Shown piece by piece: positions 40,181 through 64,000 of a stretch of DNA of 64,000 nt. Below the pieces are notes generated by a model, which saw only the letters and a program-made list of their open reading frames with translations, was not told the DNA's origin and made no database searches. Numbering within the stretch: the first letter of the stretch is position 1; every line of letters starts with the position of its first letter. A program made the translations under genes and the position numbers. Source of the DNA: Pyropia haitanensis (Eukaryota > Rhodophyta > Bangiophyceae > Bangiales > Bangiaceae); NCBI GenBank assembly GCA_008729055.1, contig SDUX01000010.1, forward strand, positions 2,681,090 to 2,745,089, read 5' to 3'.

Positions 40181-41194
40181 CGGACAGCGTGCGGGGGGGG
40201 TTCCCGCCCGCGGCGGCGCGCCCCGCGCCCCCGCTGCGTTGCCCGCGGGACCGCCGCAGGGGGTACCGACGGCGGCCGGCGTCGTCGCGGCGGGCGACGC
40301 CGCCCCCGCCTGTACCCTGGAGGGATGGCGGCAGCGGTGGTCGCCTCGCGGGGCACACAGCGTCCGCCCCTCCTCCCACGTGGGGGTGGCTGTCGTGCGG
40401 CCGAGCATCGGCCGCTCCCGCCCCCTCGCCCCTCCCCTGCTGTGGCCGCCCGCGCCGCCGCCGCCGCCGAGCTGCCATGCCCCCCCCGCGGTGGCGGCCG
40501 CGCCGCGGCGGCGCGCCGCGGTGGGCGCGGCGGCGGGCGCGGTCGCGGGCGCGGCGGCGGCGACGTGGCGGCGGCGGCGGCGGCGGCGGCGCTGCGGCGG
40601 CGGCGTCGGTGGCAGCGGGGCGGGGCGAACGGGCGCGGGTGGAGCGGGGGGGGGGGGGGGTGTGGCAAGGGCGAGCGGGAACACACCCACGCGGTGGAGC
40701 CGTGGCGGGGCAAGCCGCTGCCAAGTTGGAGGGAAGAGGAGGCGGCGAAGAAGTCGGGCACCGGCGGCGGCGCGTTATAGGTAGGCGGCGCACCCGCGGC
40801 CGCGGCGGGAGCGGCCGCCGGCGCGACGCGAGGGCGTCCTCCCCGCGCCCGCCAGGCAGCGCCTGGCAGGTGCCACACGAGCACAGTCGGTTCGGCGGTG
40901 TCGACAGCGATGCATGCATGCACCTGGGAGGCGCCTGCCCCCGCACTCTCCCACCGTCCCTCTATTCTCCCCACCCCCCGAGCTGACAACACAACCAACA
41001 CAAACGTATACGGAAAACACGCACAGACAAACCAACCGCCCGCAAGAAACACAACCAAAGTAAGACGAGCGTCGCCGTCGCAATCAGGTGCTCCCCTCCC
41101 CTCCATGCCCGCCCGACCGCCGCGGCTGCGGACCCCCCCTAGGCCACCACAGCCACAGGGACCTCACGCCGGCGGCGGCAAAGTGGGCGACTCT
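40181..41194. other. convergent intergenic region between the DUF6544-type and giant DUF3638 genes
   Basis: GC-rich and repetitive to about 40870 with a palindrome GCCAGGC/GCCTGGC at 40850-40866, then an A/C-rich tract at about 40985-41070 (GT-rich in the minus-strand sense) 125-210 nt past the stop of the giant gene, a likely 3'-end element for it. No gene is supported. Confidence 0.4.
40985..41070 (-). promoter_or_regulatory. GT-rich tract downstream of the giant DUF3638 gene
   Basis: On the minus strand it is rich in TTGTGTT and GTTGGTT, in contrast to the GC-rich surroundings, 125-210 nt beyond the stop at 41195. It resembles GU-rich polyadenylation elements. Confidence 0.4.
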
Positions 41195-44100
41195 CTACAC
41201 CGACCCCCCCCCGTGCGTCGGCGAGTCCGCCTCGACCGGCGGCAGCGCGTACGCGAGCGGCTGCTGGCATCGGTCGTACACGCCGCCCGCGTGCGAGTGG
41301 TCGACCGCCCCCCCCCCCCGCGCACGTCGAGCAGCCGCCGCAGAAGCACCACCGGGCTGCGACCAAAGACGCCGCCGCCGCCCGCGGCGGCGGCCGCCAC
41401 CGCCGCGGCGGGCATCAGCCGCGCCCGCGCGTCGGCGCGGACAAAGCCGTCCTTCCCGACGACGGCGCCGCCGCCGCCGCCGCCGCCCGTGTCGGTTTCG
41501 GCAAACGCCGCGGCGACGGCCGCCGAATGCGGGCGCGCCGCGACGCCAATCGTCGCGGCCGTGACCGCCGCCTCGGTGTGGCAGCAATAGTAGAGAGCGC
41601 CGCCGAGCAGCGCGGCGCGGACGAGCACGGCCGCCCCGCAGCCGTGGAGGAGCGGGGACACGTCGTCGCCGCCGCCGCCGTCACCGTCGACGCCGTGGAG
41701 TGGCGGCAGCACCGCGCCAGGGGTGAGTGCGAGGCAGCGCTGCGACGGCCGCCGACGGGGCGCAAACGGGTGCAGGCGTGCGGCGCCCGTGCCGCTGCGG
41801 AGCGCAGGTACGACCGCGTTGGCCTCGTGCGGGTGGAGCAGCACCACCGCCTCGGCGGTGGCGAGCAGCCACGTCGGCGGCCGCAAGTAGCCGTCGAGCA
41901 CCCGCTCGGCGGGCTCCGCCAGGACGCGCGTGTACTCGGCGGTGACCCACAGGGGGCCCGCCCACGCGGCAGGGTCAACGAGTTCCGCAAACGACGTGCC
42001 GGCGAGGGCGGCGGGAAGCGGCGCAAACGCGGCGCTCGTCGGGTCGACGTGCCCGCCCGCCGCGGCCAGCCGCGCCACGTCTCGGTGCAGGGCGGGCACC
42101 CGCGGCTCCGCGGCGTCGGGGCGGTAGACCTCGCGCTCCTCCTCGAGCTCCTGCTCCAGCTCCCGTTCCTGCTCCTCGTCTTGTGCCGCCTCCAGCCGCG
42201 TCGCCGAGCCAACGTAGGCGTCGCAGCGGGCGACCACCACCGACTCCAACGCGGCGATGGCCTCACGGACGGGCGGGCGCAGCCGGCGCGGCAGACGCGG
42301 GCACATGTCGGTGGCCAGCGACGCCGCGCGCAGCCGCACAGACGAGGCTGCCGACACGTCCCGCCGCTCCCGGCCGTACAGGGCGCCAAGCTCCACCGGG
42401 TCCTGCTGCACGTGGAGCTGCCCAATCACGTCCAGGGGGAGCGCCGCGTCCGGGTCGGCGCCCGCCCGCGCCGCGGCGACGGCCCGGGTGCGGTCCAGCC
42501 CGCGGCCAGCCCAGTGGTGGAAGCCGTCTCGCAAGTAGGCCTCACTGTTGCCAAGCGCCCACAGCACCACGTCAGCGCTGCCCAGCGTCCGCCCCGCTCG
42601 TTTGCCCGCCACGATGCTCGCGTGGACCTCGGCCGACGCGACAAACGACACGGTGTGGGCGCCTACGGTCTGGCCCAGCCGCCGCATACGCATCGCCGCC
42701 TGCACCAAGCGGTCCTTGGTGATCCCCCGTCCGAGCGTCACGGCCGCGTGCGTGCCAGCCGGGAAGCGGAGGTCGGTCCCGCGGGTGTGGGACTCATCAA
42801 AAAACGCGACACACCGGTCCATGCGGTGCGAAAACGGGGACACTGCCAGCGCATGGACCACCCCGCCGCGGTCGACGGCACAACACAGGTTGGCGGCGTC
42901 AAAGTAAATGGCAGCGTCAATGTCGACGGGCGATGTGAGCTCCAGCCAGGCAGCAGCCACGCCGGCACTGTCCAGCTCCTTCATCAGCGCGCCCACGTCC
43001 AGCAGCACGCGCGTGGGACGACTGTCTGCGCAGATCCGTTGCAGGATGTCTCGGCCAGATGCGCACGCCGGCATGGCCACGTACCGCTGGTTCTCGGGCA
43101 TGAGGAGGGCGGCAACAACCATCCCGCTGGTGTGTTGCAGGTCGGGCAGGTCGCGCTGAGCAATGCTGGGCGGCAGCAGCAGCGCGGTCTCGTTGGTGCC
43201 AGAAAAACCCACAACAGGGCGGCCAGCGCGGCGGCACAGGTCCCACGCGGACGCCGACAGGCGACCGGGAAAGACCTTGGCCTCAACTGGGAAGACCGCC
43301 TTGTTGAGCCAAAAGTTGATGGTCGCCACGTTGAATCGCAGCAGCGGGAAGAGGAGCTGGCGCTGGGCGTAGTCGCTCAGGTTGACGCCACTGAGGGAGC
43401 GCACGCTGGCAGGAACGGAGACGGCGCATGACGAGGCGTCAGCCGTCGAGCGCGCATACACGTCCCCGTCCAGCGCCTCGATCCATAGGCGATACTCGGC
43501 CTCGGCCTCACCGCTGTACAGACGCATCAGCCGCGCAAAGCAGTCGTCCAACTGGGCGTCCGTCAGCCCGCTGCCGTAGTAGGCCAGTTCAGTCAGCACC
43601 AGGGCCAAGCAGGAGTGGGAAAACTCGGCGCGCTCGGCCGGCACGTCCTTGGCACGAAATGGCACAGCCATCAGGCGGTGCTCGGGCCCCCGCTGGGAAA
43701 CACCCTTGGCCACGGCCGCAATCGCAGACGGCCGCACGCCATAGTTGACCCGACGCCGCTTCTGCAGCGCCAAACGCAACACCTCAAAAGACAACAAGCC
43801 ACGCAGCGACAGAAGGGTGTCTCGTGGCGACCCAGCAGGCACCGCACTCAGCGCCGCGTCCACGTCGGCCTGCACGACGCGAGGCTCCAACAGCAGCCGA
43901 CGGATGAGCGCCTTTTCCCCACTCTGCAGGAGGGGGAGCTGCAGGTGCTTATCCACGCCACGGCGCTCCAGCACATCGTCGACCACGAGCTGACACAGGC
44001 GGGGGTACACAGCGGCGTCCAGGATCCGCAGGTGCGGAAACGCAGCCGCACCGCCCTCCGCGGCTGGCTCCAGCTCGACCGCGTCTGGTCCATACTCTTC

Positions 44101-47100
44101 CAGGAGGGTCCCCGCGTGACGTCGAACCAGTCGGAGGACCCCTTGCTGGACGAGCCAGCGCAGCGAATCACCGCCCAGCGACCGCAGGTCCCCCATGGCG
44201 TACACCAGCTGATAGCGCACGTCCAGGAGGTCGTCGCTCTCGTCTAGGCAATCCCGCACGTGGTCCGTCAGCCAATCGTGCACGCTGCGCAAACCGGCAG
44301 CATCGTCTGCTGCGCCGGCAACGCACCGCTCCAACACCATCAATTGGAATGACAGCCGGTGCTCGGGCAGGGTGACCACGATGCCGCGCTCCTCGGTGCA
44401 GCGCTGGTACGCCTGCAACAGGTGCAGCGCTTCTTTGTTGCCGAGGTCCAGGTCGCGCCGGCAGGGGAATGACCAAACGCGGCGTCCCAGCAGGCCGCCC
44501 AGCACAGCCGTCAGCGAGTCAAAATTGCTGCGCAGCAGCGCGCGCAACACAGTGCACCGAAAGAGCTGCTTGCCGTCGGCCAGCGTGGCCGCCAACAGGG
44601 GTAGTATTACCGAGGTCTTGCCCTCCCCCATGTTCAGCTGCAGCACCAGGTTGTCGCCGGGCGCAAAGCCAGCCGCCTCGCCAGTGCCGCTTGACTCGCC
44701 CGCGCCGGACGACTCGTTCGCACCGCCGGCATCTGCGGGGGCGATCATGCGCGCGGCCACCTGCGCCTGCACATCGCGCACAAGCCAGCCCTGCTCGAGC
44801 TCCAGCAACAGCCACTCTGGCCGGTCCATCGGCGCCCAGGTGTGCCTGCCCCTGTTCTGGAGCTCCCGACGGAGGGCAGGCATCTCTTCCGTCCCCTGGC
44901 CCAGCAAGACCAGGCACCGCTCAGCGCGGGCAGCAAGCGTCCAGCAGACGGCGGCGGCACCCAGCAGGGCCGCCTGATCCGCGGCGTCCGCGTCCGCGTC
45001 CAGCAGCCGGGGGAGGAGCACGCCAGGCGCGAGGCGAGACCACAGGCCAGCGGCGAAAAGTGCGGACTCCTCCTGCGTCGACGGCGACAGCCCGCGCTGT
45101 GCAGCTGCCCACAGCTCTCGCGCCTGCGCGCTGCAGCGGCTGCGGCGGGCGACCAACGCGCGGGCAAGGTCCTCCCGCCAGTCGCCCTGTGCGGAAGGCC
45201 GAGCGGCGTCGCACGCCGCAGCGCGCAACGCCTGCAGTCGCTGCCAGCTGCGCTGTGCAGCTGCCCACAGCTCTCGCGCCTGCGCGCTGCAGCGGCTGCG
45301 GCCGGCGACCAACGCGCGGGCAAGGTCCTCCCGCCAGTCGCCCTGTGCGGAAGGCCGAGCGGCGTCGCACGCCGCAGCGCGCAACGCCTGCAGTCGCTGC
45401 CAGCTGCTCCAGCTGTTGCGCAGTGCCCCCCGCGAGCGTTCGACAATCGCGTCGGCAGTGGCCGAGCCGGACTCCAGAACCGCCGGAAATGCAGGCACCG
45501 GCGGCGGCGCGGGCGGCGGGGGGAGTGCGCCCTCGTCGACCTCCTTCTCCTCCCCGAACTCAAATTGGCCGGTGGTGAATACGGCGCGCGCAACGGCGAG
45601 GACGTCGGGCTCAGACGCGGAGCGCCAAGCCGCAGCGGCGACCGCGAAACGAGCGGAAGGCGGCGGCGCCAGAGCAGGCCCACAGTTGGTAGAAAAGTCG
45701 CGGAGCGGAAGGGTCCGCAGGCGCACCACGTCAGACACAAGCTGATCCACGCGGCACAGCCACAGGTACAACTGGCGGTTGCGGAACCACTGCTCGAGCT
45801 GGCTGCTCACAGCCTGGGATGCGTCGGTCAAATTGACATAGCTGCTCCAGGAGCGACGTCCGCTCAGATCAATCCAAGCCACTGGCCAGGCGGCACATAC
45901 GACCGCCTCCAGCTCTTTCACAGCAAGAGACTGGCGGAGGCGATGCCGGGCCAAAACCTCGTCCTCGTCCTCACCGTCGACGCCGCGCAGGTCGCAGTCA
46001 ACACCGCACTTCGAGATCAGCGTTTGGACCTTGTCAGACAGGTAGACGCGATCAGCCGTTCGCAGGAAGTAGTCATCGTCTGGTGGGGTGGAGAACAAGC
46101 CGCGGTGCTGCGAGACGACGAGCAGCGTCCCAGCATTGGCCAAGGTCAGCTCCCCCCGCCACACCAGCAGGGACAGCAAGTAGCGCACCTGGACAGGCGT
46201 CCCTGCCCGGCGGCAGTACTCGTACACGCCCAACCAGTGGCGCTTGCCGTCCACATCCCGCCACGACGTGACGGTGTTGCCGTGGTCGCGCACGGTGCCA
46301 AGCGCCATGTGGGCCCCGTCGACACGCTCGAAATCGCCGAGGAGCGACGCAACAGAATCCACCTTCACAGCGTCAGCCCCGTCCACGCGAGACAGGGTGC
46401 GGACAGCCAAAAACGCCTCCGGCTTGGATGGCAGCAGCGGGCGCCATAACGTCTTCTTAGTGATGGCCGGGGCGGCCAACCCCAGCCGCTGTTCCGTCGC
46501 CGCGGTCAGCCGCTGCTCGGGCCCAACCGCGTCGCGCCCGCGCCAGTAGGCCTTGCTCCTCAAAAGCAGCTGCCCGTCTTGCACTTCTGGTGCAGCTTTT
46601 GAGCCAGGGAACAAAAAGGTCAGACCGGCGGCGTCCCGCTCCAGCGCCAGCACTGCAAACCACAGGGCCTCGCCAACGAGGCCGCCGACAAAGTTGGCCG
46701 GGAACTGGGTGTGCTCCATACTGCGCAGGTGGGCGGGATATAGAGACCGCCGCGGCGCGACTGCCTTGAGCGCCGCCAGCAGCTCTGCATCGCGCGAGGA
46801 GGCGGGTACATTGCTCCAACAGCTGCCTCCCTGCAGCAAGCGCAGGGCAGCCTCAGTGCCTGCCACTCCCGTAAAAGGGTCGGGCAGCATGCTTGACGTG
46901 TACACGAGGAGGAGCGCCAGGTACAGCAGCGCCGTCCGGCTGGGCCCCGTCGGCCTCAGCTGCTGCAGCCGGTCGGCCACGTCATAGACAAAAAACGGTG
47001 GCTCCGACAGCGCGTCAACGTCAACAGCCACACTGCCGGCCCCTGGGCTAGCAGGGTGAAGCAGCGGCCCGTGGGGAACGAGGACGCGTCGGCGGGGGAC

Positions 47101-50100
47101 CTCATAGACCCCTTGGGCGTCGTCCACCAACACCAGTCCGTGGACCAAGCCTGTCAAGGCGCCGATGCTTTGGTCCGCAGCGACACAGAAGCCAGGGAGC
47201 TCCCGAGAAGCCAGCACCACGCCGTCGCCGCGGGTCACCACCTCCAGGTGGAGGCGCAAGCGCGGAAGCCAAACCGTCACCGCGCCGCCGACTGCGGCAC
47301 GCCACACATGCACGTCCCGCCGGTCCGCCAGTCGACACAGCGCGGCATCGTAGAGGTGCTCAAAGGAACAGCCCCGCACGTCCACCAGCGTGCTGCCGTC
47401 ACAGGCCTGGATCAACCGGCGCGTGCGGATGTCCAACGAAAAGGGGCAGGTGGCCACCAGGCCGCTGGGCGCAAAAAAATCCCTGGACGCGGCCGACGGT
47501 GGGCGGAACAGCATGGCGCCCTCAGATAGCCAGTGGCTGTACCGGTCGACCAGGTCGCGCGGCAGGTCGCCGCTGAGGAAGCGAGAAGGGAAGAGCGCCA
47601 GCTCGCGGCCATCGGGGCGGCGCTCCACCACGACAAGGCGGCCGTCCGCCTCGAGTCCAAACAAAAAGAACGAGCCACCGCGCGGCTTGGCCGTCACGTA
47701 GGCGCCAGGGCGACTCGCTGCGGGCTGCACCTCTAGGATGGTGCGACCAAAAACCTGCCTGAAGTCAGAATGTGCCGAGATGGTGCTGGGCAGACGACCC
47801 ACCGGCGCGCCGTTGACCAGAAAGGCGCCACGCAGCACGTCTAGCTGCAATACCGTGCGCTGCTCTCCGGCAGCACCCAAAAAAAGGGTGTGGTACCAAC
47901 GCTCGCTCGGTGCGTCGTACGGCTGCCACACACCGGGCGAGCCGGAGCTCCCGTCAGCCCAGTGGCCCTCTACAAAAGTGGTGAGCGCAGAGCCGGACAG
48001 GACGCGCCGCAAGACCGGGTCGAGGCGTAACGCCGCGCGGCCTACCCGGCGGAGCAGCACGCGGCGGGCCGTAGACTCGGCGCTCGACAAAGCGGAGTCG
48101 TCGCCGGTTGCCAACAGGGTATTGTCGTGGATGCAGGCCACTGCACGGAGCCACTGGACAACGTCCTCCTGTGTGGACAACACCAGGGGCAGGTGCTCAG
48201 GATCCACGTCAAACGTGAGCGCGCCCGTCGCCGCCACGTCCACCAGCCGCTCGCGGAGTAGGGCGCCCTTTGCCACGGGGGCGTCCGCCGGGAGGGCCGT
48301 GATGGCGCCCTCGACGCTGTTGGCCCAGTCGTGGGCAACCTGGCGGCACTGACGCAGCGCACCCGCAGCAGCGAACGACCACTTTTCGGGGCCGGACAAC
48401 GCGAGCACCCGACCTAGGATGGTGACGATCACCAGCAAAACGCGGTGGTGCTCCCAATTGTCGGCAACCGCTGCCAGCCAGGCCGACGCGGTGGCGACCA
48501 GCTCGCGCGCAAACGGCCCGAGCCCGCCGTCCGCGTGCGCTTCCCGCCGCCACGCCGCACAGGCATTGCCGTGGGGACGCACTGGAGGCCCCGCTTCCCA
48601 CAGCGCCTGGGAGAGCAGGATACCGACGGCGCGGGTATCAAACGACAGGGTGCGCGCCTCGATCGCGTGCAGGATGTTGCGCAGCTGGAGGTGGCTGCCC
48701 GCCCGTAAGCTCCCAAAGGCCACAAACTCTGGCAAGCCCAGCTCGGGCGGGCACTTGTTTTGGCGGCACAGAACCTTGTTGACGTTGTGTGTGGTGCCAC
48801 TCACCGTCCACTACACGGACCATGGAACCAAGCAACAAAAGGGTCGGAAAAAACACAAAGAGAAGAGAGAATGGGGTGCAACAAGAGAGGGTCCTTTGTC
48901 AGCGCGGCTCATTCACCGTGGACACAGGTTGAGTCCAAACCACTCTCAGCCCCCCCCCTCCCCACCCCCCGCCCGCCCACCGCCCAACGGGAAGGGGGAC
49001 GGCAGAAGAAAACGCAAGGCCAAACCCGGGGGCAGCACCAGACACTCATGTGTATAGAAAAGAATGCCACCTTACCTGCAACATGCGGTACGGCCCCTCG
49101 GGGACCGTCAGCACAATCTTCGTAGTTGGGGCGCCCGCCTTGTCCAGCGTCGCGTAACAGCCAGTTGATGGCGCGCACAAGACAACGTTGCAGCCGTTGG
49201 GAACCACAAAGTCGCTCAAAGGGGAGGAAGGGTGCAGCCCGCTGTTATAGTGAGAGCGACCAAACGGCTTGGTCGCACTCCCCAGCTTCACCAGTGCCGA
49301 GCCCTTCGTCACCCAACGAGACAGCTCGTGGTGCTCCGACCAGGTACTCTCCGAGCAGAACTTAATCGATTCGCTGCCGCACACGTCGCGGCGCAGCAGG
49401 TAGAGGGCGTCTGCCAGGTGCGACAGCGGCCGCGGGACACACAGGTCGTACACGACGGCGAGCTGCTGCACCGCATTGTCCGGGAGCAGCTTCTCGTACA
49501 AAGACTCCCTCATGCCCGCGGCGGTCTGCTGGATGCCGCACTTGAAGCAGTCATAATCGTGCACTAGGTGTCCTCTCCTGGAAGTGTGATACGAGCATGA
49601 CAGCCCCGCCGCTCTCTCCACCAGACCCTCGTGCTTCCGTCGCGCACGACCAACCTCTGCGTGCTTGGCTGCCACGTCCGCCTCGATCTGCGCCACGATC
49701 CGCGTGCGTGCCGCCCGCATGCCCGCGTCCTGCTTCGCAAAGCGGACAGCAAAAGAGTCAGCCGAGGCCGCGGCGGTGGCCAGCAGCGCAGGTCCCGACG
49801 CGACAGCGTCGCGGCCGAGAAAGTACGCCTCGACGGCCGACAGCTGACGCAGCTGCTCCGCGTGCGGCAGCAGGAGCTGGGTGAGAAATTGCACGTCCAC
49901 CCCGGGCGCGTGCTCCCGGAGCAGCGGGTACTGGGCGCACGCAGCAGCGTCCATCATGGCTGCCAGGGTAAAGGCCGTCAACACGAGCGCGCTGTGGCCG
50001 ACGGGGTCAGCGGCGTAAAAGGGAGACGCCACCTTGAGGTAGGCCTCCAGCATCGCACGCATGTCTGGCACGGTGGTGTCCGTCTCCAGCGCCTGGGCCA

Positions 50101-51445
50101 GGCAGACGCGCGTGACCCACGCCTCAAAGTCCCACAGCGCCTGCGTCTGGTCGTCCTCGCGTAGGCCATCAAAGCCTGGAAAGTAGGGCGCGTCGGGCGC
50201 GCCCTCAACCCGACCGGTACAGTCGGGCCGCGCCGGCGTCGGGCACGTGAGGCTGCGCGGTCGCGCCAGCGCACGGCGCAGGTGCGGCTCCGCCGTCTGG
50301 AGGCACAGCCGCGTGTCGGGCAGGAAGTCCAGCTGGGTCGCCCGCAGCGCCACTGCCGCGGCCGCCGCGTGGTCCGCCACCGCCACCGTCCAGCGGGCGT
50401 CGAGCACCGCGCGCGCGGCCACCACCGCCGCCGCCGCCCGCGTCAGCACCGCCTCGTAGTGTGCACGCGCGGCGGCGGGCGGCGGGCCGGCAGCGGCGGC
50501 GGCGCCGCCGGAACCGCCACCGCCCGAGGCCGGCGCGCCCAGGCGGGCGCGCAACTTGGCCGACCGGCGGGCCACCTTGGCGGCCATGTGCAGCAGCAGC
50601 TCCGCGTCGGCCGCCAGCTCTGTGCGCGCGCGCTCCAGCGCGCCCGCCATCAGCGCCAGCATTTCGGCCTTGTACGCGTCCGTGCCGGCGGCGGCGCCAA
50701 GGCGGCCGACAAACCACACGTGCAGCACGGCCTTGACGGCCGTCCACTCGCCGGCGCGGCGCCAGGGCAGCTCCGCTTCCGCCCAGCTGATCGTGTCGCG
50801 GACCTTTTTGGCCACCGCCACCCCATCCGTCGCGGGCACCCGGCAGCCCGCGGTCACGCCGAGCAGCCACTCGGTCACAAACGTTGGCGACAGCACGTCC
50901 CGACGCTCGCAGAGCGTCGCCCCCTGGGACCGTCCCTTGGTCGCCCGCGGGTACTGCTCCTCGTAGGGGGCGACGGCGAGGGCGGCCAGCTGGCGCGCAA
51001 ACTCCCCCCCCTCGCCCACCACCCGCTCCGCGGGCACCCGCACCGTCACCGCGGGGTAGCGGGCGGCGAGGTCGCCCGCCGCGCCCGTCACCTCCCCGTT
51101 GGGCGCCGACACCTGGAACACCCCCACCGCCGCGTCGGCGTCCCGGCCAGGGGCGACCGTCAGCACCGCGTTTTGGGCCGCCACGTAGACGGGCAGCACG
51201 TCGCCGCCGCGGAGCGCGGCGAGCGCCGCGCCCAGCTGCTCGGCGCAGAGCGCCGGGCCCGCCAGGTCCGCCCACCGCGAGAAGACCGCGGACGCGCCGG
51301 CCGCGGCCGCCGACGAGCGCGCCGACGCGCGCAGCGTCGTGGCCATGGCGCGCACAAAGGCGCCATCAAACGGGTGCTCCGGTGCCGCCCCGGGGAGCAC
51401 CCGGGGCAAAAAGACCGACGTCACGAGAAACCGGAACGGGTCCAT
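41195..51445 (-). CDS. giant DUF6606 / DUF3638 / DUF3645 protein, two exons
   Basis: Exon 1 is 51445-49076 (790 codons) and exon 2 48810-41195, joined by a 265-bp intron (GTAAGG...TAG) in phase, for about 3,300 residues. Exon 1 carries the DUF6606 N-terminal domain (MDPFRFLVTSVFLPRVLPG, VAAQNAVL, ELPWRRAGEWTAVK). Exon 2 begins WTVSGTTHNVNKVLCRQ and CPPELGLPEFVAFG. Near residue 2185 lies the DUF3638 core NLVLQLNMGEGKTSVILP, a P-loop, with DESDDLLDVRYQLVY after it; GFSGTNETALLLP follows, and DUF3645 near 2795 has FFDESHTRGTDLRFP and LGRGITKDRLVQA. The P-loop plus DExD/H-like motifs suggest a helicase-like NTPase (inference); automatic annotation elsewhere sometimes calls the family ubiquitinyl hydrolase, which I cannot support. 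A 12-nt run at 41308-41319 shifts register into a natural tail ending at 41195; otherwise it ends at 41164. The family occurs in fungi, oomycetes and algae; function unknown. Confidence 0.85.
45095..45406 (-). repeat. 156-bp tandem duplication inside the giant gene
   Basis: Two head-to-tail copies (45095-45250 and 45251-45406) that differ at about one base, encoding two 52-residue helical units (SWQRLQALRAAACDAARP and onward) with one Gly/Arg difference. In frame and clearly recent. Confidence 0.9.
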
Positions 51446-51720
51446 CGCCGCCGCCCGCCCCGCCGCTACCCAGGATGGCACGCTCGGGGGGGCTCCCGAT
51501 GCGGGGGAAAGGGCGACGCGCGCACCTTCCGCCGACCGCGACGCGGCGGGCGGTCCGCCTGACCACGGTAACCGGCAGCCGCTACCAGCCGCAGAGCAGC
51601 GGCCTTGGCACAACCCACCCCACCGTCACGAGCGCCAGCCCCCAGCACCCGCCGCCGGGCACCACACGCTAGACCCCACAGGCGTACGCGCCGACGCCCC
51701 ACCACCAGTGCCCCGCCGCA

Positions 51721-55161: not shown

Positions 55162-57717
55162 CTACCCGCTGAGCGCGCGCAGCAGCGGCGGCACGGCGCG
55201 CAGCGGCGGCGGGCACCCCCGCGCGAGGGCGGCGCTGAGGACCCCCCCCAGGCCGACCGCCGCGGCGGCACGGGCGGCGGCGAGGCCCGCCGCCGCCGCT
55301 GCCGGCGGCACCGCCGTCGTGCGGTCCGTCGCAACGATCGCGCCGCCAATGACCAGGTCGCCCGCGAGCGTGTGCGGGTGGTACAGCCCGGTCGACGTGA
55401 CGGGCGTGACGGCCGTCACCGGCCGTGGGAGGCCGTCGGGTCCGACCAGCGCGTGCACGCCGGGCGTGATGGCGCTGGCGGGCAGGGGGGACGCGCCGCC
55501 GCCGGCGACCGGCAGCAGGTGCCCCGCGCTGACGGTGAGCGTGTGGAGCGGCGGCGCGTCGGCGGTGCCGTTGGCGCCGCCCGCGGCCGGCGCGTCGGCG
55601 GGGGTGGCGGTCGTGATGGCGAGGAAGGGCGCCACCGCGGTCGCGTCCGCGTGGGACCACAGGTAAATGGGCGAGTAGGTGCCGTCCGCGGCGAGCACCG
55701 CGTCGCCCAGCCGGAGGTCCGCCATCGCCACCTGCCCGCGGCCCGCCACCGTCGCGGTCGCGTCGGCGGGGAAGCACGCGCTCTCGTCGTCGCCGTCGGC
55801 TGCCGACGGCGACAGCGGCTCGTCGACGGCGGGCGCACCGGCGGGATCCGACGTGTCGCCGCCCCCGTCGCGGTCGCCCTCCCCGTCGCTGCCCCCGTCG
55901 TTGCCGTCATTGCCGTCGCCGTCGCTGTCGCCGTCGCCGTCACCGCCGCCGCCGCCGTCGCCGCCCGCCACCGCACACGTGGGCGCGCCGCCAAAGGCAG
56001 ACGACCAGCCCACCGCCCCGTTCTCCGACAGCGGGTTGACCGGCAGGATGCCCACGCCCGGCGTCAGGTTTTGGCCATTGGTGCAAATCGTGCCGGGGGT
56101 GCCCGCCTCGTCGACGAGCGCCAGCCCGCAAAAGCTGATCGAGTCGGTCCGGTCCGCCGCGCCCGCCCGCACCGGCCGGGGGTAGACAAACAGGAAGCTC
56201 ATGATCATCTCTTGCGGGGTGCCGAGGCCCCACGTGATGGGCGGCTCCTCGCCGGCAGCGTCCAGCTTGGCCGTGTCGTACCGGCCCGTCACCTCGAGGC
56301 GGTCGCCCGGCAGGAGGTCCGCCTGTTCAAACAGCGTCGGCCGCTGGTGGTCGTTGCTCCAAAACGCCGCGCCCTCGAGCGTCCGCAGGAACGTGCCGTT
56401 GCGGTACTGGTTGGTAAACAGGTACAGCGCCGTCCGGTGCGCGTGGAGGAGGCTGTCGTAGATGGTGAGCGGCGTTGCCAGCTGGGCGGTACACTCGGCC
56501 GGGCACGCGACCGTGTAGTTGCGGTCCGACGCGACGGGCTGGCCAAACAGCGCCACGGTCGGGTCCCCAATGTTGATCGTGCCCGCGTCCTGCGCCCGCG
56601 GCGTGTCGGTAAAGTGCAGCCGCACCGACGAGCTGTTGTCCACCACCCCCACCAGCCCGTCGGGGTTGTCGTAGTGCACCTGTAGGATGTACGTGCGCTC
56701 CGCCTCTGAGACGGGGAAGCCCGCCTCGGGGGGCATGACCAGCGGGCTCGCGCCCGCCGCCCACACGTACACGATATCCCGGCACTGGGGCATCTCGGTG
56801 AGGCAGCTCTTGCCCGCCGCGTAGTCCTCCCACCCGCCGTCGCGCTCGCACGAGCTGAGCACAAAGTGATGGACGAGCGGCCCCGCCTCGCTCGTCTTGT
56901 CAATCACCGCCTCGGCGGCCACGATCTGGCGGCCCGCGCCGGCGGCGTCGCCCAGGTCCACCTCAAACGAAAAGCACCCATAGTCGGTCCGCTCCTCGCT
57001 AATCTCGTACGGCGGGACAGTCAGCAGCTGCGAGGCGGTCGCGTCCGCGGGGAGCAGCCCAGACTCGGCAAGCCCCCCCGCCGCCACCGCCCGCCCGCCC
57101 GTCTGGGTCAGGTCCACCTGCGTCCCGTGGCGGCGGCCGCCGTGGTAGCCAAACCCGTCTCCGTACGCGTACATGAGCACGTTGCGGCCCGCCACGACCG
57201 GCCGGTCCTGCGCCGCGTTGGCCGCCGCCAGCGGCCGGTCCACCTCGAGCGTCACCGTCCCCGCCGCCGCGTCGACCGCGCACGCGGCGAGCGTCCACGA
57301 CTCGGCCGCGCACGGCGCGTCGGGCTCGGGGAAGATGGCGTCGCCGCCGGTGGACGAGCCGAGCGGCACCGCCACCGACGGCACGTGCCGGTTGACCAGG
57401 GCGCACGCGGCCGGGCCCGTAAACTCGGCCGTCACGATATCCGCGCCGAGCATGGAGCCGCTCGTCGGCTCGCCAATGCCGAGGCCCACCCACGCCGCCG
57501 CCGCGGCAGCGTCGCCGCCAAAGAGCGCCGCGTCGGTGACGACGAGGCCAAACCGCACGGCGGTCGGGGTGAGCGTCCAGCTGAGCGTCGCCGTCTCGTC
57601 CAGCCGCGCGGACGCGTTGTACGAGCGCAAGCCGGCGGCGGGGGCCACGACCGCAGCGACGGCGGCGGCGGCCACGGCCAGGCCCGCCGCCACGGCGGTG
57701 CCACCCGTCAACCGCAT
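55162..57717 (-). CDS. secreted DOMON / copper type II monooxygenase / Hint fusion, gene A
   Basis: An 851-residue single-exon protein. Residues 1-29 are a signal peptide (MRLTGG, Ala/Val core). About 30-190 form a DOMON domain (LSWTLTPTAVRFGLVV, AWVGLGIG, GADIVTAEF). About 240-570 form a DBH/PHM-like copper monooxygenase with the expected copper ligands: HH in VHHFVLSSC (~283), HYDNPDG (~347), HAH (~425) and Met in TPQEMIMSFLFVYPR (~504). A Gly/Asp-rich linker (~595-645) leads to a Hedgehog-type Hint domain (~648-810): ACFPADATATVAGRG, MADLRLGDAVLAADG, LTVSAGHLLPV, VHALVGPDGLPRPV, GLYHPHTLAGDLVI. The Hint cysteine is Cys648. Inference: a secreted copper oxidase whose C-terminus self-cleaves. 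The usual catalytic T-x-x-H reads S-A-G-H. The start at 57717 is the only ATG giving a signal peptide. Paralogous to gene B at 61745. Confidence 0.9.
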   Translation of the reverse strand: MRLTGGTAVAAGLAVAAAAVAAVVAPAAGLRSYNASARLDETATLSWTLTPTAVRFGLVVTDAALFGGDAAAAAAWVGLGIGEPTSGSMLGADIVTAEFTGPAACALVNRHVPSVAVPLGSSTGGDAIFPEPDAPCAAESWTLAACAVDAAAGTVTLEVDRPLAAANAAQDRPVVAGRNVLMYAYGDGFGYHGGRRHGTQVDLTQTGGRAVAAGGLAESGLLPADATASQLLTVPPYEISEERTDYGCFSFEVDLGDAAGAGRQIVAAEAVIDKTSEAGPLVHHFVLSSCERDGGWEDYAAGKSCLTEMPQCRDIVYVWAAGASPLVMPPEAGFPVSEAERTYILQVHYDNPDGLVGVVDNSSSVRLHFTDTPRAQDAGTINIGDPTVALFGQPVASDRNYTVACPAECTAQLATPLTIYDSLLHAHRTALYLFTNQYRNGTFLRTLEGAAFWSNDHQRPTLFEQADLLPGDRLEVTGRYDTAKLDAAGEEPPITWGLGTPQEMIMSFLFVYPRPVRAGAADRTDSISFCGLALVDEAGTPGTICTNGQNLTPGVGILPVNPLSENGAVGWSSAFGGAPTCAVAGGDGGGGGDGDGDSDGDGNDGNDGGSDGEGDRDGGGDTSDPAGAPAVDEPLSPSAADGDDESACFPADATATVAGRGQVAMADLRLGDAVLAADGTYSPIYLWSHADATAVAPFLAITTATPADAPAAGGANGTADAPPLHTLTVSAGHLLPVAGGGASPLPASAITPGVHALVGPDGLPRPVTAVTPVTSTGLYHPHTLAGDLVIGGAIVATDRTTAVPPAAAAAGLAAARAAAAVGLGGVLSAALARGCPPPLRAVPPLLRALSG

Positions 57718-59111
57718 GATGGCGGGCAGGGGTAGGCCGGGACGGCAGCCGTCGAGATGGGAGGGTGGGAAGCGCGGAAAAGAGGCGGGAGCGTGGTGAG
57801 GAGGGGGGGCAGCGTGGGCAAGAGGGGGGGGAGGCTGAGGAAGAGGGGCGGGGCGGTCGGGAGGAGGGGGGGGACAACGGCGAAGATGTGGGGCAGCCCC
57901 AGCCGCGGCCGCCCGGTGCGCAGGGACGTGGCGGGATCCCTCTGCGGCCAACGCCCCGCCGCTCGCGGCGGTCACTTTTGTACTCGGTGCCTCTCCCCCC
58001 GCCCCCCCCCGCAGCTCACCTCCCCACCCGAGGCGCCCGCTTCCGTACCGTCGCCCGTCGCGTCGGCCGCCTTCCCACCCCCCCCCCCCACCCCCCCCCT
58101 TCCCCACCCCCACCATCACCGGCGGCGGCTGCTCGACATCCCACGCGACGCGGCGCCGCCGCGCCGGTCCGTCCGGCCGCCGCGCGTGCCAGCAATAGCC
58201 GCGCCCCGCTGTCGCGTCACCCCCCCGTGCGCGCGCGCACGGATGGGTGCAGCGGGCGGGGGCGGTGGGGTTCCGCCGCCCCACGGGGGAAGCAGCTTCC
58301 CCTCCCCCCCCCCCCACCCCCGCCAGCAGCGCCGCGGACAGTGGCCATCACGCTGCCGGCGCGCCATAGCTCCGCGGCCATAATCCGGGCGCTCAGCGGG
58401 CAAGTGGGGTGGGTGACCGCCGTGGGCGGCAGCGGCGGCGGGGTGGGGCGGCCGCGGCGGCGCGGCGGCGGGATCAACGGCTCGCACGGCACCATGGGCA
58501 CCAGCGCCCGTGGCGGTCTCTGCCCCACGACGGCCGCGCCGCCGTGGCGGGCGTGGCCGCGGCGCGCCGCGGTCGCCGCCGCCGCGCGCGGGCGGGGGCG
58601 GCGGCGCCCATGCGTCGTCGGCGTGCGCCGACGGGTAGCGCCTTGGATACGCGGCCGGAAGAGAAAAAAGGAGGTTGTGCAGCCGCCCGCGCTGCGCGAC
58701 GCGCGCCGGTTTCGACCACGTGACGCCGTGAGGGCGGCGGATACGGTGCGCGCGGTGCCGTCGCGGTGCCACCAGAGCGCCCGGGTCGCTCTCGCGGCAC
58801 CGCGACCACAGCTTGGCCAATCGCGTTGAACGCGGGCAGCCGACTGAAGCGTGAAGCGGGTGCCACTCTGGGTAGCTGGCATGCGTTCCATTCATATCTT
58901 GTCCAAGCTCGAGACGGGGTCCACTTTACACAAAATTGCGTCCCAGCTTCCGACTCCAATTGGATTTGGATCAGTGTAAGTTCTTTGATGGGAGGGCGCT
59001 CGGGCGACTCTCGCTCTCGGAGGGAGAGCTCTTCCCCGCCGAGAGGGCTCCTCCACTGTGCGCTGGCGCACCGGAGTGCTGTGTTCCACCGCGCACAAAC
59101 ACACGGCAGCC
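57718..59111. other. divergent promoter region between gene A and the 59112 gene
   Basis: About 1.4 kb separating two divergently transcribed genes. TACAAAAG on the minus strand at 57975-57982, about 260 bp from gene A's ATG, is a possible TATA variant. A very strong stem-loop lies at 58760-58806, followed by CCAAT at 58817-58821 and lower-GC DNA to about 59000. No coding sequence is supported. Confidence 0.4.
58760..58806. repeat. 47-nt near-perfect stem-loop with GGTGCC/GGCACC core
   Basis: GTCGCGGTGCC (58760-58770) pairs perfectly with GGCACCGCGAC (58796-58806); inside, AGAGCG (58774-58779) pairs with CGCTCT (58787-58792) around a 7-nt loop. It sits between divergent promoters, next to a CCAAT box. 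Confidence 0.7.
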
Positions 59112-60677
59112 ATGGGCGTGGCGGTCGCGGCGGCAGGCGTTCAGGTCCCCGCCCCCCCACGTACGCACCCATCTGTCTTTGTGGGCACCCCCACACCCGG
59201 CCCACCCGCTGGACGTTTCTCGAGCCGTCCACCGGCCGCCTTTACCTTTCCTACAGCCGGGCACACGCCGACCGCCGCCGTCGCTTCGGGCCGCCGCGTC
59301 GGCGTGCCGGCTGGCCCTATCCGCCCCCGCCTGACGCTGGCCGTTGGTCGCCCCGCGGTCGCGCCTGCGGCCATGGCCATGAGCGGTGCAGCCCGTGGCC
59401 GCAATGGCGGCGGCGGCGACGGCGGCGACGGCGGCGACGGCGGCGACGGCGGCAGCGGCAACGGCGCCCCAGGCTCCGCGCCGCGGGCGCGCCCCCCACA
59501 CCTGACCGCCCCCCCCCCTCCGTCGGCGGTGGCCGTGACGTGCGGCACCCTGCACGACTGGATCCACCCGACGGTCCGCGCGGACGGGCGCTTCTACGGC
59601 CACGTTGGCGAGTGGGGCGCCTTTGCGCCGCCCGACGAGCCGCTCCGGCAGCTGTCAACGCCCGCGTCCGCATGCACGCGGGCCACCACCCGCCGCGGCG
59701 CGCGGCTGTGGGCGCAGCCGCCGCCGTCGGGTGGCGGCGCCGCCGCCGCCGGCGTGCAGATCAACCTGTCGTCCACCCCGCTACGCCAGGGGCCGCGCAC
59801 CCCGGCGGTGGCGGTGCCCGTCACCGTCCGGCCACAGGACGGGCTGTACCAAAAGCAGTGGCCGACGCACCCGCCCGCAGCGCCGACCGCCCTGGTGACC
59901 GCCCCCGCCGCGGGCGACGCTGCGTGCGTCTTTGCGGGCGCGGGCGGGGGCTTGTGGGGTTATCCCGGCGGGCCGACCGCCGGCGGCGGCATGTCCTCGT
60001 TTGAGCTCTTCCTCCGCGGCGACGCGGCGGCGGAGTGGTCCACCTCTGTGTCGTGGGCGGCCGACGACGTGCACCCGGCGCTGGTCGCGCTCATCCGCGA
60101 GGCCCGCGTCGGTGGGTGGGAGGCCGTGGCGGACCGCCCGGTGGAGCTGCCGGCGTGGCCGCCCGCGACGCCACCGGCGTCGGTGGACGCGTGGGCGGGC
60201 GGGTACCCGGGGCCCGCCGAAGCCGACGCGGGCGACGGCACCGCCACCGTGGTGGCGTGGGTGACGGGGGGGTGCGCCGCGGCCGCGGCGGGCGCCCCCG
60301 CGGCTGCCGGTGGGGACGTTGCCGGCGGCGGCGGCGGCGGTGATGGCGGCGGCGGCGGCGGTCGTAGCGGCAGCAGCGGCGGTGATGACGGCCGCCGGCT
60401 GATGTCGTGGACAGTGACAGACGGCGTGCGCTGGACACCCGCCGGGGGTGGTGCCGGCGCTGGCGCCAGCCGGGTGGTGGCGCTGGAGGATGGCCTGTAC
60501 TTGTCGCTAATGGCCGACGCACGGGCGGGGGGCGTCATAGAGTTTGGATCGGCCACCCCGCCGCGGGCGGGCCAGTGCCGCCAGCGGCTGCTGGTAGTTG
60601 TGGAGCCGGGCGCGGTGGTCAGCCGGGTCGTGCACGAGGTGTACCCGCCGCGGGGTGGGGACCCCGCGGTGGGTTGA
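59112..60677 (+). CDS. unrecognised protein between the two DOMON-monooxygenase-Hint genes
   Basis: A 521-residue open frame with no family I recognise. From the ATG at 59112 the first ~95 residues contain no Asp or Glu and are rich in Ala, Pro, Arg, Ser and Thr, like an organellar transit peptide; a second ATG at 59373 (MAMSGAARG) would remove most of it. After a (GGD)n run the sequence looks globular: CGTLHDWIHPTVRADGRFYG, HVGEWGAFAPPDEP, PVTVRPQDGLYQKQWP, FELFLRGDAAAEWSTSVSW, LMSWTVTDGVRWTP, LEDGLYLSLMADA and RLLVVVEPGAVVSRVVHEVY. These suggest a beta-rich fold and possibly two related halves (DGLYQKQW and DGLYLSLM). It is divergent from gene A and convergent with gene B. Balanced composition away from the repeats supports real coding; function unknown. 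Confidence 0.6.
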   Translation: MGVAVAAAGVQVPAPPRTHPSVFVGTPTPGPPAGRFSSRPPAAFTFPTAGHTPTAAVASGRRVGVPAGPIRPRLTLAVGRPAVAPAAMAMSGAARGRNGGGGDGGDGGDGGDGGSGNGAPGSAPRARPPHLTAPPPPSAVAVTCGTLHDWIHPTVRADGRFYGHVGEWGAFAPPDEPLRQLSTPASACTRATTRRGARLWAQPPPSGGGAAAAGVQINLSSTPLRQGPRTPAVAVPVTVRPQDGLYQKQWPTHPPAAPTALVTAPAAGDAACVFAGAGGGLWGYPGGPTAGGGMSSFELFLRGDAAAEWSTSVSWAADDVHPALVALIREARVGGWEAVADRPVELPAWPPATPPASVDAWAGGYPGPAEADAGDGTATVVAWVTGGCAAAAAGAPAAAGGDVAGGGGGGDGGGGGGRSGSSGGDDGRRLMSWTVTDGVRWTPAGGGAGAGASRVVALEDGLYLSLMADARAGGVIEFGSATPPRAGQCRQRLLVVVEPGAVVSRVVHEVYPPRGGDPAVG

Positions 60678-61744
60678 TCGCGACCGGCGGGTGCGGGCAG
60701 ACGGTGGGGGGAGCGGGGCGTTGGCCATGGGGCGGACGGACACACGAGCAGTCCCAGCCCCGCCCGAATCTTACCCGGTGGCGCGGCACCTGGTGCCACC
60801 GTCTGTGCCAATGGCGTTGACCCAGCGGGTCGAGAGGGGGGCGGTGAGACGGGACCAAGGCGATGTGGCGAGGGCGGGGGGCGGGTGCTGCGAGGCCCTA
60901 CAGTATCGGATTCCGGCCAGGACGAAAAAAAAAACAAAAAAAAACGCTATATCAGACCAGCCCAACTGCGGCCTCCCCCGGTGGCCTCCCCCGTCCCTTT
61001 TCCGCACCCCCCTACCACCAGCCGCCATCACGGGTCCCCCCCCACGACTTCCTGCACTCTTGATGGTTGCACACGGGGAGGGTACGTATCGCTCCCGTGC
61101 GTGCCTCGCGGGACGCACGCGCCATCGGCGGCGGTTTTGCCATTGTCGGGCCGGCCCGGGCACCCGCCCCAGCGGCCGCAGTGGCGGCCACCAGGGGGCC
61201 GACCGAGGGAGAAGAGGCGCTGGGTGAGGCGCGGGGGGCGGGGGCGGCCACGCCAGCTTTGTCCGCTGTGGCGCCCGTGCCCCGCGGCCTCAACGACGGG
61301 CGACGGGCGCTGCGCGCCCACCCCGCTGCTCGGTGACCTGCTGCCCGCGGGGCGGCCGCTGCGTGCACGTCCGCGGCCCCCTCCGTGAGCTCCCCCCCCT
61401 CACCACGACCGCCACGCGGCGCGCAGGCGACGACACTTCCATCGCAGCTGTCTACCATGCGCATGGGCGCGCCCGACTGATCCACCCGCTCCCCCCCGCC
61501 GCGCGCTGGCCGCCCATCCACATGGCGCGCCACCGGGCAGCGCGGCGGCCGGCGGCCGCCGGCCGCGGCGCCGTCCCCCCCAGCCACCGCGCGGGCGGGG
61601 GCTGCTAGCGTTCCATGGAAAAAAAGAAACGTGTACCAGTGGCGCCCACGGCGACGTTGCTCCAATCGGGTGCCCCCATCACCCCCTCTACTCTGCCACC
61701 ACTCCAAATCGAATCCCCCACCTTCCTCACCGGCACCACCCCCT
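60678..61744. other. convergent intergenic region between the 59112 gene and gene B
   Basis: Contains the palindrome GGCACC-T-GGTGCC at 60785-60797, two A-rich runs at about 60925-60948 (unusual in this DNA and possibly linked to 3'-end formation) and another A-run near 61620. No coding sequence or RNA gene is supported. Confidence 0.4.
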
Positions 61745-64000
61745 CTACGAGCTTAGCCGCCGCAGCAGCGGCAGCAACCCCCGCAGCACCGGCGGGCATC
61801 CGTCCGCGAGCACACCACTCAGCACCCCCCCCAGCCCGACCGCCGCGGCGCCGCGCGCGGCGGCCAAGCCCACCGCCGCCGCTGCCGGCGGCACCGCCGT
61901 CGTGCGGTCCGTCGCAACGACGGCGCCGCCAATGACCAGGTCGCCCGAGAGCGTGTGCGGGTGGTACAGCCCGGTCGATGTGACGGGCGTGACGGCCGTC
62001 ACCGGCCGCGGGCGGCCGTCGGGTCCGACCAGCGCGTGCATGCTTGGCGTGACGACGTGGGCGGGCAGGGGCGGGCCGCCGCCGGCGACCGGCAGCAGGT
62101 GTCCCGCGCTGACAGTGAGCGTGTGGAGCGACGGCGCGCCGGCGGTGCCATTGGCGCCGCCCGCGGCCGGCGCGTCGGTGGGGGTGGCGGTCGTGATGGC
62201 GAGGAAAGGCGCCACCGCGGCCGCGTCCGCGTGAGACCACAGGTAAATGGTCGAGTAGGTGCCGTCGGCGGTGAGCACCGCGTCGCCGAGCCGCAGCTCC
62301 GCCATCCGCACCTGCCCGCGGCCCGCCACCGTCGCGGTCGCGTCGGCGGGGAAGCACGCGCCGCCAGCGTCGTCGTCGGCCGGCGACGGCGACGGTGCGC
62401 CGTCGGCGGCCGGCGACGCGGTGGGTGCGGCTGAGCCACCGCCGCCGCCGCTGCCGCCGCCACCGCCGCCGCCGCCCGCGACGGTACACGTGGGCGCCTG
62501 GCCAAACGCGGGCGACCAGCCGACCGGCCCGTTCTCCGACATTGGGTTGACCGACAAGACGCCCACGCCCGGCGTCAAGTTTGCGCCACTGCTGCAAATG
62601 GTGCCGGGGGTGCCCGCGTCATCGACCAGCATCAGCCCGCAGTAGCTGATCAGGTCGGCAGTCGAGGCGGCGCCCGCCCGCACCGGCCGCGGGAACACAA
62701 AGAGGTAGCTCATGAGCATGTCTTGCGGGGTGCCGAGGCCCCATGTGACGGGCGGCTCCTCGCCGGCGGCGTCCAGCTTGGCCGTGTCGTACTTGCCCGT
62801 CACCTCGAGGCGGTCGCCCGGTAGGAGGTCCGCCTGTTCAAACAGCGTCGGCCGCTGGTGGTCGTTGCTCCAAAACGCCGCGCCCTCGAGCGTCCGCAGG
62901 AACGTGCCGTTGCGGTACTGGTTGGTAAACAGGTACAGCGCCGTTCGGTGCGCGTGCAGCACGCTACTGTAGATGGTGAGCGGCGACGCCAGCTGGGCGG
63001 TACACTCGGCCGGGCACGCAAACGTGTAGTTGCGGTCCGACGAGATGGGCTGGCCGTCAAGCGCCACGGTCGGGTCCCCAATGTTGATCGTGCCCGCCTC
63101 CTGCGGCCGTGGCGTGTCGGTAAAGTGCAGCCGCACCGCCGAGCTGTTGTCCACCACCCCCACCAGCCCGTCGGGGTTGTCGTAGTGAACCTGCAGGATG
63201 TACGTGCGCTCCGCGTTGGAGACGGGGAAGCCCGCCTCGGGGGGCATGACCAGCGGGGTCGTGCCCGCCGCCCACCCGTACACCACGTCCCGGCACTGGG
63301 GCGACTCGTTGAGGCAGGCCTTGCCCGCTACGTAGTCCTCCCACCCGCCGTCGCGCTCGCACGAGCTGAGCACAAGGTGGTGGACGAGCCGCCCCGCCGG
63401 CGTCGACGAGTCAATCACCGCCTCGGCGGCCACGATCTGGCGGCCCGCGCCGGCGGCGTCGCCCAGGTCCACCTCAAACGAAAAGCACCCATAGTCGGTC
63501 CGGTTCGCGCTAATCTCGTACGGCGGGACGGTCAGCAGCTGCGAGGCCGTCGCGTCGGCGGGGAGCAGTCCAGACTCGGCAAGCCCCCCCGCCGCCACCG
63601 CCCGCCCGCCCGTCTGGGTCAGGTCCACCTCGGTGCCATGCCGGCGGCCGCCGTGGTAGCCAAACCCGTCTCCGTACGCGTACATGAGCACGTTGCGGCC
63701 CGCCACGACCGGCCGGTCCTGCGCCGCGTTGGCCGCCGCCAGCGGCCGGTCCACCTCGAGCGTCACCGTCCCCGCCGCCGCGTCGACCGCGCACGCGGCG
63801 AGCGTCCACGACTCGGCCGCGCACGGCGCGTCGGGCTCGGGGAAGATGGCGTCGCCGCCGGTGGACGAGCCGAGCGGCACCGCCACCGACGGCACGTGCC
63901 GATTGACCAGGGCGCACGCGGCCGGGCCCGTAAACTCGGCCGTCACGATATCCGCGCCGAGCATGGAGCCGCTCGTCGGCTCGCCAATGCCGAGGCCAAC
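61745..64000 (-). CDS. secreted DOMON / copper type II monooxygenase / Hint fusion, gene B (5' end outside the window)
   Basis: Paralog of gene A in the same orientation; the frame is open to the window edge at 64000 (VGLGIGEPTSGSMLGADI), so the signal peptide and first ~80 residues are missing. The copper ligands are all present: VHHLVLSSC, LQVHYDNPDG, HAHRTALYLF and TPQDMLMSYLFVFPR. The Hint domain starts GACFPADATATVAGRGQV and also has LTVSAGHLLPV in place of the usual T-x-x-H. The linker before the Hint domain is Gly/Ser/Pro/Ala-rich rather than Asp-rich as in A. The N-terminal DNA (63642-63997) is almost identical to gene A (57131-57486), while the Hint part is clearly more divergent. 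Presumed secreted copper enzyme with self-processing C-terminus (inference from domains). Confidence 0.88.
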   Translation of the reverse strand, partial: VGLGIGEPTSGSMLGADIVTAEFTGPAACALVNRHVPSVAVPLGSSTGGDAIFPEPDAPCAAESWTLAACAVDAAAGTVTLEVDRPLAAANAAQDRPVVAGRNVLMYAYGDGFGYHGGRRHGTEVDLTQTGGRAVAAGGLAESGLLPADATASQLLTVPPYEISANRTDYGCFSFEVDLGDAAGAGRQIVAAEAVIDSSTPAGRLVHHLVLSSCERDGGWEDYVAGKACLNESPQCRDVVYGWAAGTTPLVMPPEAGFPVSNAERTYILQVHYDNPDGLVGVVDNSSAVRLHFTDTPRPQEAGTINIGDPTVALDGQPISSDRNYTFACPAECTAQLASPLTIYSSVLHAHRTALYLFTNQYRNGTFLRTLEGAAFWSNDHQRPTLFEQADLLPGDRLEVTGKYDTAKLDAAGEEPPVTWGLGTPQDMLMSYLFVFPRPVRAGAASTADLISYCGLMLVDDAGTPGTICSSGANLTPGVGVLSVNPMSENGPVGWSPAFGQAPTCTVAGGGGGGGGSGGGGGSAAPTASPAADGAPSPSPADDDAGGACFPADATATVAGRGQVRMAELRLGDAVLTADGTYSTIYLWSHADAAAVAPFLAITTATPTDAPAAGGANGTAGAPSLHTLTVSAGHLLPVAGGGPPLPAHVVTPSMHALVGPDGRPRPVTAVTPVTSTGLYHPHTLSGDLVIGGAVVATDRTTAVPPAAAAVGLAAARGAAAVGLGGVLSGVLADGCPPVLRGLLPLLRRLSS

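Follow-up and report, generated by a model that had tools for sequence, protein, structure and literature searches.

Why should a probably secreted copper monooxygenase carry, at its C-terminus, a Hint domain of the kind found in Hedgehog proteins? The question is raised by a stretch of 64,000 nucleotides from the red alga Pyropia haitanensis (C4:2681090-2745089, forward strand, of a 53 Mb genome; hereafter the window). Two tandem genes on its minus strand encode, in the same domain order, a signal-peptide-like start, a DOMON-like region, a Cu monooxygenase and a C-terminal Hint domain, an arrangement that had been proposed from the sequence alone and that holds in both paralogs. The answer towards which we lean, with some reserve, is that the Hint domain would act as a self-cleaving C-terminal module on a secreted two-copper enzyme of the DBH (dopamine beta-hydroxylase)/MOXD-like type, whose product would be modified at its C-terminus, a lipid, and in particular a sterol, being the first candidate.

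The profiles PF01082 (Cu2_monooxygen), PF03712 (Cu2_monoox_C) and Hint all match above the Pfam cut-off in genes 1 and 2, as expected by the sequence-only reading, and a search of NCBIfam gave no match. From their sequences, the genes encode a copper monooxygenase of the DBH/PHM type, assigned by its domains to the copper type II ascorbate-dependent family, with a complete copper site. In fact, the five His and one Met that align with the residues we take to be the copper ligands of dopamine beta-hydroxylase are all kept (6/6) in 12 of 12 sequences, and the best solved relative of the family profile is the human enzyme (PDB 4zel, 5.7e-42). The DOMON match stays below the Pfam cut-off in the window gene (E 0.012); in the family alignment the best value is 1.4e-6, with E<=1 in 11 of 11 sequences, and on a low-confidence model this region matches the fold of the cytochrome domain of cellobiose dehydrogenase. 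The full-length structure model is poor (pLDDT, the predicted local distance difference test score, of 49; 11 sequences) and its fold matches serve as support for the DOMON and copper domains only. The N-terminal region is, by its relatives and its modelled fold, DOMON-like, though below the cut-off. With the dopamine beta-hydroxylase/MOXD/PHM family the proteins share the two copper domains, their six ligands and a DOMON-like region ahead of them, whereas the red algal proteins end in a C-terminal Hint. Any assignment of a hydroxylase substrate to the window enzymes is speculative. Secretion, as proposed in the sequence-only reading, stands as probable, from a signal-peptide-like start recognised by a crude measure of hydrophobicity.

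Each of the two genes is one uninterrupted frame of the genome. The claim that enzyme and Hint belong to a single polypeptide is borne out by a paralog, one of two intron-bearing copper-Hint copies on C9 (L050 and L051, C9:1403389-1415811). The database match P0005 is identical to L051 at 818 of 818 residues, over three exons separated by gaps of 165 and 205 bases with GT/AG ends, and joins enzyme and Hint; it corresponds to neither window gene. This is most simply explained by a spliced transcript across both parts, a point on which the source itself is silent; its code, lgn, presumably denotes an SRA assembly collection.

The same architecture was found in other red algae, in P0004 (Pyropia vietnamensis), P0007 and P0115, and the nearest named protein relatives of the window genes are from Pyropia and Porphyra. 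In Pyropia vietnamensis it is carried by two consecutively numbered genes, MMPV_005235 and MMPV_005236. In P0115, from the distant red alga Purpureofilum apyrenoidigerum, a DOMON match (5.4e-6, below the cut-off), both copper domains and Hint follow each other in the same order; the identity is 32% over the enzyme, all six ligands are present, and the Hint has Cys1, the His discussed below and TAGH. The same genome also holds two paralogs devoid of Hint, at C4:2990-2994k and C9:3294-3297k, which end just after a conserved FGG.P.C stretch, approximately where the window genes enter their linker; the six-frame genome search found no Hint match near either of them. With these paralogs, the relatives in other algae and the Hint domains on dozens of other frames, the first impression of an isolated two-gene case does not survive, and uniqueness of the window pair is rejected.

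The Hint domain was proposed to be of the Hedgehog type, and fold and profile comparison confirm that its closest solved relatives are Hedgehog domains. Both window genes, like every aligned relative, keep Cys1 and the (T/S)xxH motif. His occupies the position of Hedgehog Asp303 (D46) in 50 of 50 sequences of one alignment and in all 120 database Hints of another, these 120 being the matches listed of 139 found via words shared with one Hint (L024). For Cys1, the count in the 50-sequence set is circular, because the sequences had been cut at CF[PT]; the 120-protein alignment was not cut in that way. An engineered D303H Hedgehog is reported to keep its activity and to accept a wider range of sterols (PMC9163320). 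The engineered domain (D303H/D46H, PDB 6TYY) shares the fold and the His at the general-base position with the red algal domains, but it is a modified fly domain, while the red algal His is natural and the sole residue seen. With the Hedgehog Hog domain (Hint and C-terminal helices) the red algal proteins share the Hint fold, Cys1, (T/S)xxH, helices C-terminal of Hint and a probably secreted N-terminal part; they differ in the His that replaces Asp303, in the window genes also in an Ala for the Gly before Cys, and in the N-terminal part of the window proteins, which is an unrelated enzyme. The HH_signal profile found no match in this genome, nor in any control genome. As to the sterol recognition region (motifs J and K), the family profile extends past the Hint core of 6td6, and the window genes deviate from the tail motif of the family at its Pro (see below).

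From a mechanistic perspective, the enzyme-Hog precursor would be secreted and processed during secretion. Cys648 would attack the preceding peptide bond in an N-S acyl shift aided by Ser730 and His733, giving an enzyme-Hint thioester; in our judgement cleavage before Cys648 is very probable, a prediction whose basis is the conserved Cys, the (T/S)xxH motif and the fold. His689, in place of Asp303, would then activate an external nucleophile, so that Hint is displaced and the enzyme C-terminus modified; we judge covalent attachment of some kind to be rather probable. The likeliest nucleophile would be a lipid hydroxyl, that of a sterol foremost, and the enzyme would be anchored at the cell membrane or surface, with the Hint-less paralogs as a soluble form of the same enzyme. 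The sterol itself is a plausible and still speculative part of the proposal, to which we give slightly less than an even chance.

Several observations weigh against this account, and they are considered here with the other explanations that they may favour. Some of them concern the fusion. Copper domains and Hint occur on one protein in only seven of 23 relatives, the rest being mostly partial. P0013, an open reading frame of an assembled transcript that is labelled complete, encodes the enzyme but lacks Hint, with an apparent intron read-through by eye, and the Pyropia yezoensis model P0002 (I4F81_006700), also by eye, skips the linker and the first half of Hint, Cys1 included, which the otherwise similar P0001 retains; P0002 is either a mis-annotation or a splice form incapable of self-cleavage. 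These two records, together with the fact that the window genes are known from genome frames only, could suggest that the fusion is an artefact of gene models or assembly and Hint a separate gene. The continuous frames of genes 1 and 2, the same order in proteins of other species and the spliced match P0005 make such an artefact scarcely conceivable, and it is rejected.

A second group of observations concerns constraint. A third tandem copy beyond the window (C4:2748096-2751365) has a frame break between its DOMON and copper parts, and between genes 1 and 2 the Hint core shows a ratio of nonsynonymous to synonymous rates (dN/dS) of 0.59 (13 synonymous and 19 nonsynonymous changes), which indicates weak constraint. 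Both facts, and a decayed copper-Hint copy on C8 (L012), would fit a Hint that is an inactive, decaying remnant of domain shuffling. Against such decay, which we regard as very improbable, the catalytic residues are intact in the window genes and in all aligned relatives, the Hint of the C9 pair has a dN/dS of 0.09 (9 synonymous and 2 nonsynonymous changes), and the architecture is common to Purpureofilum. In the same C9 pair the synonymous divergence (dS) is 0.05 in Hint and 0.45 in the copper part, and gene conversion of the Hint region is therefore probable; dS is uneven along genes 1 and 2 as well.

The third group concerns the chemistry. Asp303 is replaced in every aligned sequence, and the general base of Hedgehog is formally absent. 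The residue before Cys1 is Ala in both window genes, not the Gly of Hedgehog, and in the 40 loci fetched from elsewhere in the genome it is A12 V9 S7 E5 D3 T2 N1 G1. Moreover, 39 of 50 sequences keep the Pro of the LxPxR tail motif, where the window genes have Ala, with Leu and Arg retained. The same departures from Hedgehog could mean that Hint cleaves itself and attaches nothing, the thioester being hydrolysed and a soluble enzyme freed, as a built-in switch for secretion or maturation. The vertebrate Shh mutant D46A, as described in PMC13060885, cleaves faster with thiol, and D46 was there proposed to limit wasteful hydrolysis, which points the same way. This alternative deserves attention, and yet we hold it to be unlikely: the His is not drifting but invariant among the 120 matches listed, an engineered His at the same position supports sterol transfer (PMC9163320), and the Hint-less paralogs already supply a soluble form without cleavage. 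As for the sterol as the attached group, measurements have shown cholesterol in Pyropia tenera, and among red algae 37 species are cited in which it is the main sterol, whereas the same source also cites it as only 1.3-8.6% of the sterols in Porphyra and Palmaria (PMC8234223); the latter figure belongs with the points against attachment of a sterol.

The proposed self-cleaving and lipid-attaching Hog would not be limited to one enzyme, and may be a general C-terminal module that this alga places on many secreted proteins of unrelated kinds. A six-frame Hint search of the genome gave 80 matches, 78 of them over the cut-off, which we merged to about 76 places including the window pair. Of the other 74 places 40 were fetched, and the partners of the remaining 34 were taken only from second family searches; among the fetched loci, 38 were scanned directly with Pfam, all 38 passing the Hint cut-off, and the two C9 monooxygenases were covered through P0005 (the exons of L051) and P0004. 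The recognised partners of Hint are a carbonic anhydrase (L044, 4.3e-26), an imelysin (L032, 1.3e-25), a fasciclin (L049, 4.7e-17) and three DOMON stretches (L043, 2e-15). The other 34 of the 38 have no recognised N-terminal family, and the partner count is a lower bound because several frames either are interrupted by introns or lack a Met. A DOMON match at C10:3707223 also adjoins a Hint match at C10:3706278, both listed with a 546-aa frame. Database records from elsewhere join Hint to trypsin, dioxygenase and kelch, and in Pyropia vietnamensis to carbonic anhydrase. A Met with a signal-peptide-like stretch is present in 30 of the 40 Hint frames; counted per Met, such a stretch follows in 35 of 156 cases in Hint frames versus 78 of 1775 in other frames of the same DNA, about five times more commonly by this crude measure, and many other Hint-bearing proteins are probably secreted.

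The partner range, with fasciclin and carbonic anhydrase, also bears on a further explanation, in which Hint would join the enzyme to a hydroxyl group on something other than a lipid, for instance on a polysaccharide of the cell wall, and serve as a wall-anchoring device. The replaced general base and the variable C-terminal helices would agree with it, but no acceptor-binding domain was recognised and the nearest solved relatives are Hedgehog domains, and we think it quite improbable.

Other Hint loci were noted by eye. L019 and L022 (C3:4368-4419k) have acidic repeats of the DDNDG type, thrombospondin type 3-like, between N-domain and Hint, and in the neighbouring L021 the acidic repeats are of a different type. 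L055 (C21:140441-146531) combines Hint with a region like a soluble sugar/PQQ (pyrroloquinoline quinone)-type dehydrogenase, for which Pfam gave no match at E<=0.01. Two Patched-family genes are present in the genome (C7:2325780 and C9:5702996); they say nothing specific on a release of the Dispatched/Patched type, because the family includes NPC1-like proteins.

The history of the fusion was followed in a tree of Hint domains. In it, Hints of the copper type from this genome and its close relatives fall into two groups, with support of 100/99 and 99/97, and the Hints of P0115, P0081 and P0114 are placed elsewhere, that of P0114 beside the Hint of a trypsin fusion (99/85). Four changes of the copper-fusion label are required, at least two of them forced by supported branches, with 25 of 59 branches open and several relevant rows of deviating composition; gain, loss or exchange of Hint by the enzyme has therefore probably happened repeatedly. 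The count from the enzyme tree was not used, because the partial models P0003, P0006 and P0008 were scored as Hint-less and P0115 forms a long branch.

The Hog domain and its spread in algae are already known. Hog domains outside Hedgehog were described in Porphyra, Chondrus, Griffithsia, Gracilaria and others, with secretion signals wherever the start of the protein is known (Buerglin, 2008; PMC2362128). Section 16 of that paper gives distinct N-terminal domains to GmGIN1 and Hoglet alone, and neither monooxygenase nor DOMON is mentioned in its main text. Other sources report Hog and Kelch+Hog genes of unknown function in Cyanidiophyceae (PMC13353863) and vWD and Hint domains in more than 290 genes of the diatom Pleurosigma (PMC12803021), and Hedgehog has been called singular for its covalent cholesterol (PMC7242414). 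The non-Hedgehog Hog proteins of red algae and protists have in common with those studied here the Hog domain, the secretion signals and K+Hog fusions, and differ from them in the copper monooxygenase, carbonic anhydrase, imelysin and fasciclin partners, which are added here. What is new is the enzyme fusion, the partner range within one genome and a natural His that never varies in the aligned sequences at the base position of Hedgehog. That no DOMON-monooxygenase-Hint protein had been described, as first supposed, agrees with our literature search, which found no paper combining Hint domain, monooxygenase and DOMON.

As a tentative generalisation, in bangiophytes and perhaps in other algae Hog might be a general device for processing and lipid-tagging the secretome, similar to the glycosylphosphatidylinositol (GPI) anchor: dozens of unrelated secreted proteins, with oxidases, carbonic anhydrase and adhesion domains among their number, would be cut from a common C-terminal module, in which the His would give a broader acceptor range than the Asp of Hedgehog. 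If this were true, Hedgehog would be a single animal branch of an ancient system for anchoring proteins. The roughly 76 Hint places, some on enzymes of known chemistry, make a pre-Hedgehog role of Hog directly testable, because mass spectrometry can show what the mature C-terminus is in an enzyme that is secreted. Furthermore, the natural His variant connects the engineered D303H result to nature, and the findings suggest that red algae have extracellular monooxygenases of the DBH type both with Hint and without it.

Table 1. Parts of the two tandem genes, in window positions
Feature	Position	Strand	Remark
Gene 1, complete: DOMON-like + Cu monooxygenase + Hint	55162..57717	-	851 aa, single open frame
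Gene 1 signal-peptide-like N-terminus, residues 1-29	57631..57717	-	crude hydrophobicity only
Gene 1 DOMON-like domain, residues 31-205	57103..57627	-	
Gene 1 Cu2_monooxygen, residues 233-354	56656..57021	-	Pfam; ligands H283, H284, H348
Gene 1 Cu2_monoox_C, residues 377-514	56176..56589	-	Pfam; ligands H425, H427, M504
Gene 1 Gly/Asp-rich low-complexity linker, residues 584-647	55777..55968	-	
Gene 1 Hint core, residues 648-799	55321..55776	-	predicted cut N-terminal of Cys648 (codon 55774-55776)
Gene 1 His689 codon	55651..55653	-	equivalent to Hedgehog Asp303/D46
Gene 1 SAGH (Ser730..His733)	55519..55530	-	counterpart of TxxH motif
Gene 1 C-terminal helical tail, residues 800-851	55165..55320	-	where the sterol recognition region would sit
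Gene 2, 3' part	61745..64000	-	751 of 827 aa inside window; likely ATG outside it, at C4:2745317 (window-equivalent 64228)
Gene 2 Cu2_monooxygen	63167..63532	-	Pfam
Gene 2 Cu2_monoox_C	62687..63049	-	Pfam
Gene 2 Hint domain + tail	61748..62356	-	Pfam

Between the tandem genes lies a 539-aa frame on the plus strand (window 59058-60677) with no Pfam match at E<=0.001. Elsewhere in the window, two large minus-strand frames at 41164-51613, with DUF3638/DUF3645 (2546 aa) and DUF6606 (855 aa), are perhaps pieces of one giant gene, and an EB1-like microtubule end-binding protein (CH domain and EB1 motif) is encoded at 2345-3688 on the plus strand.
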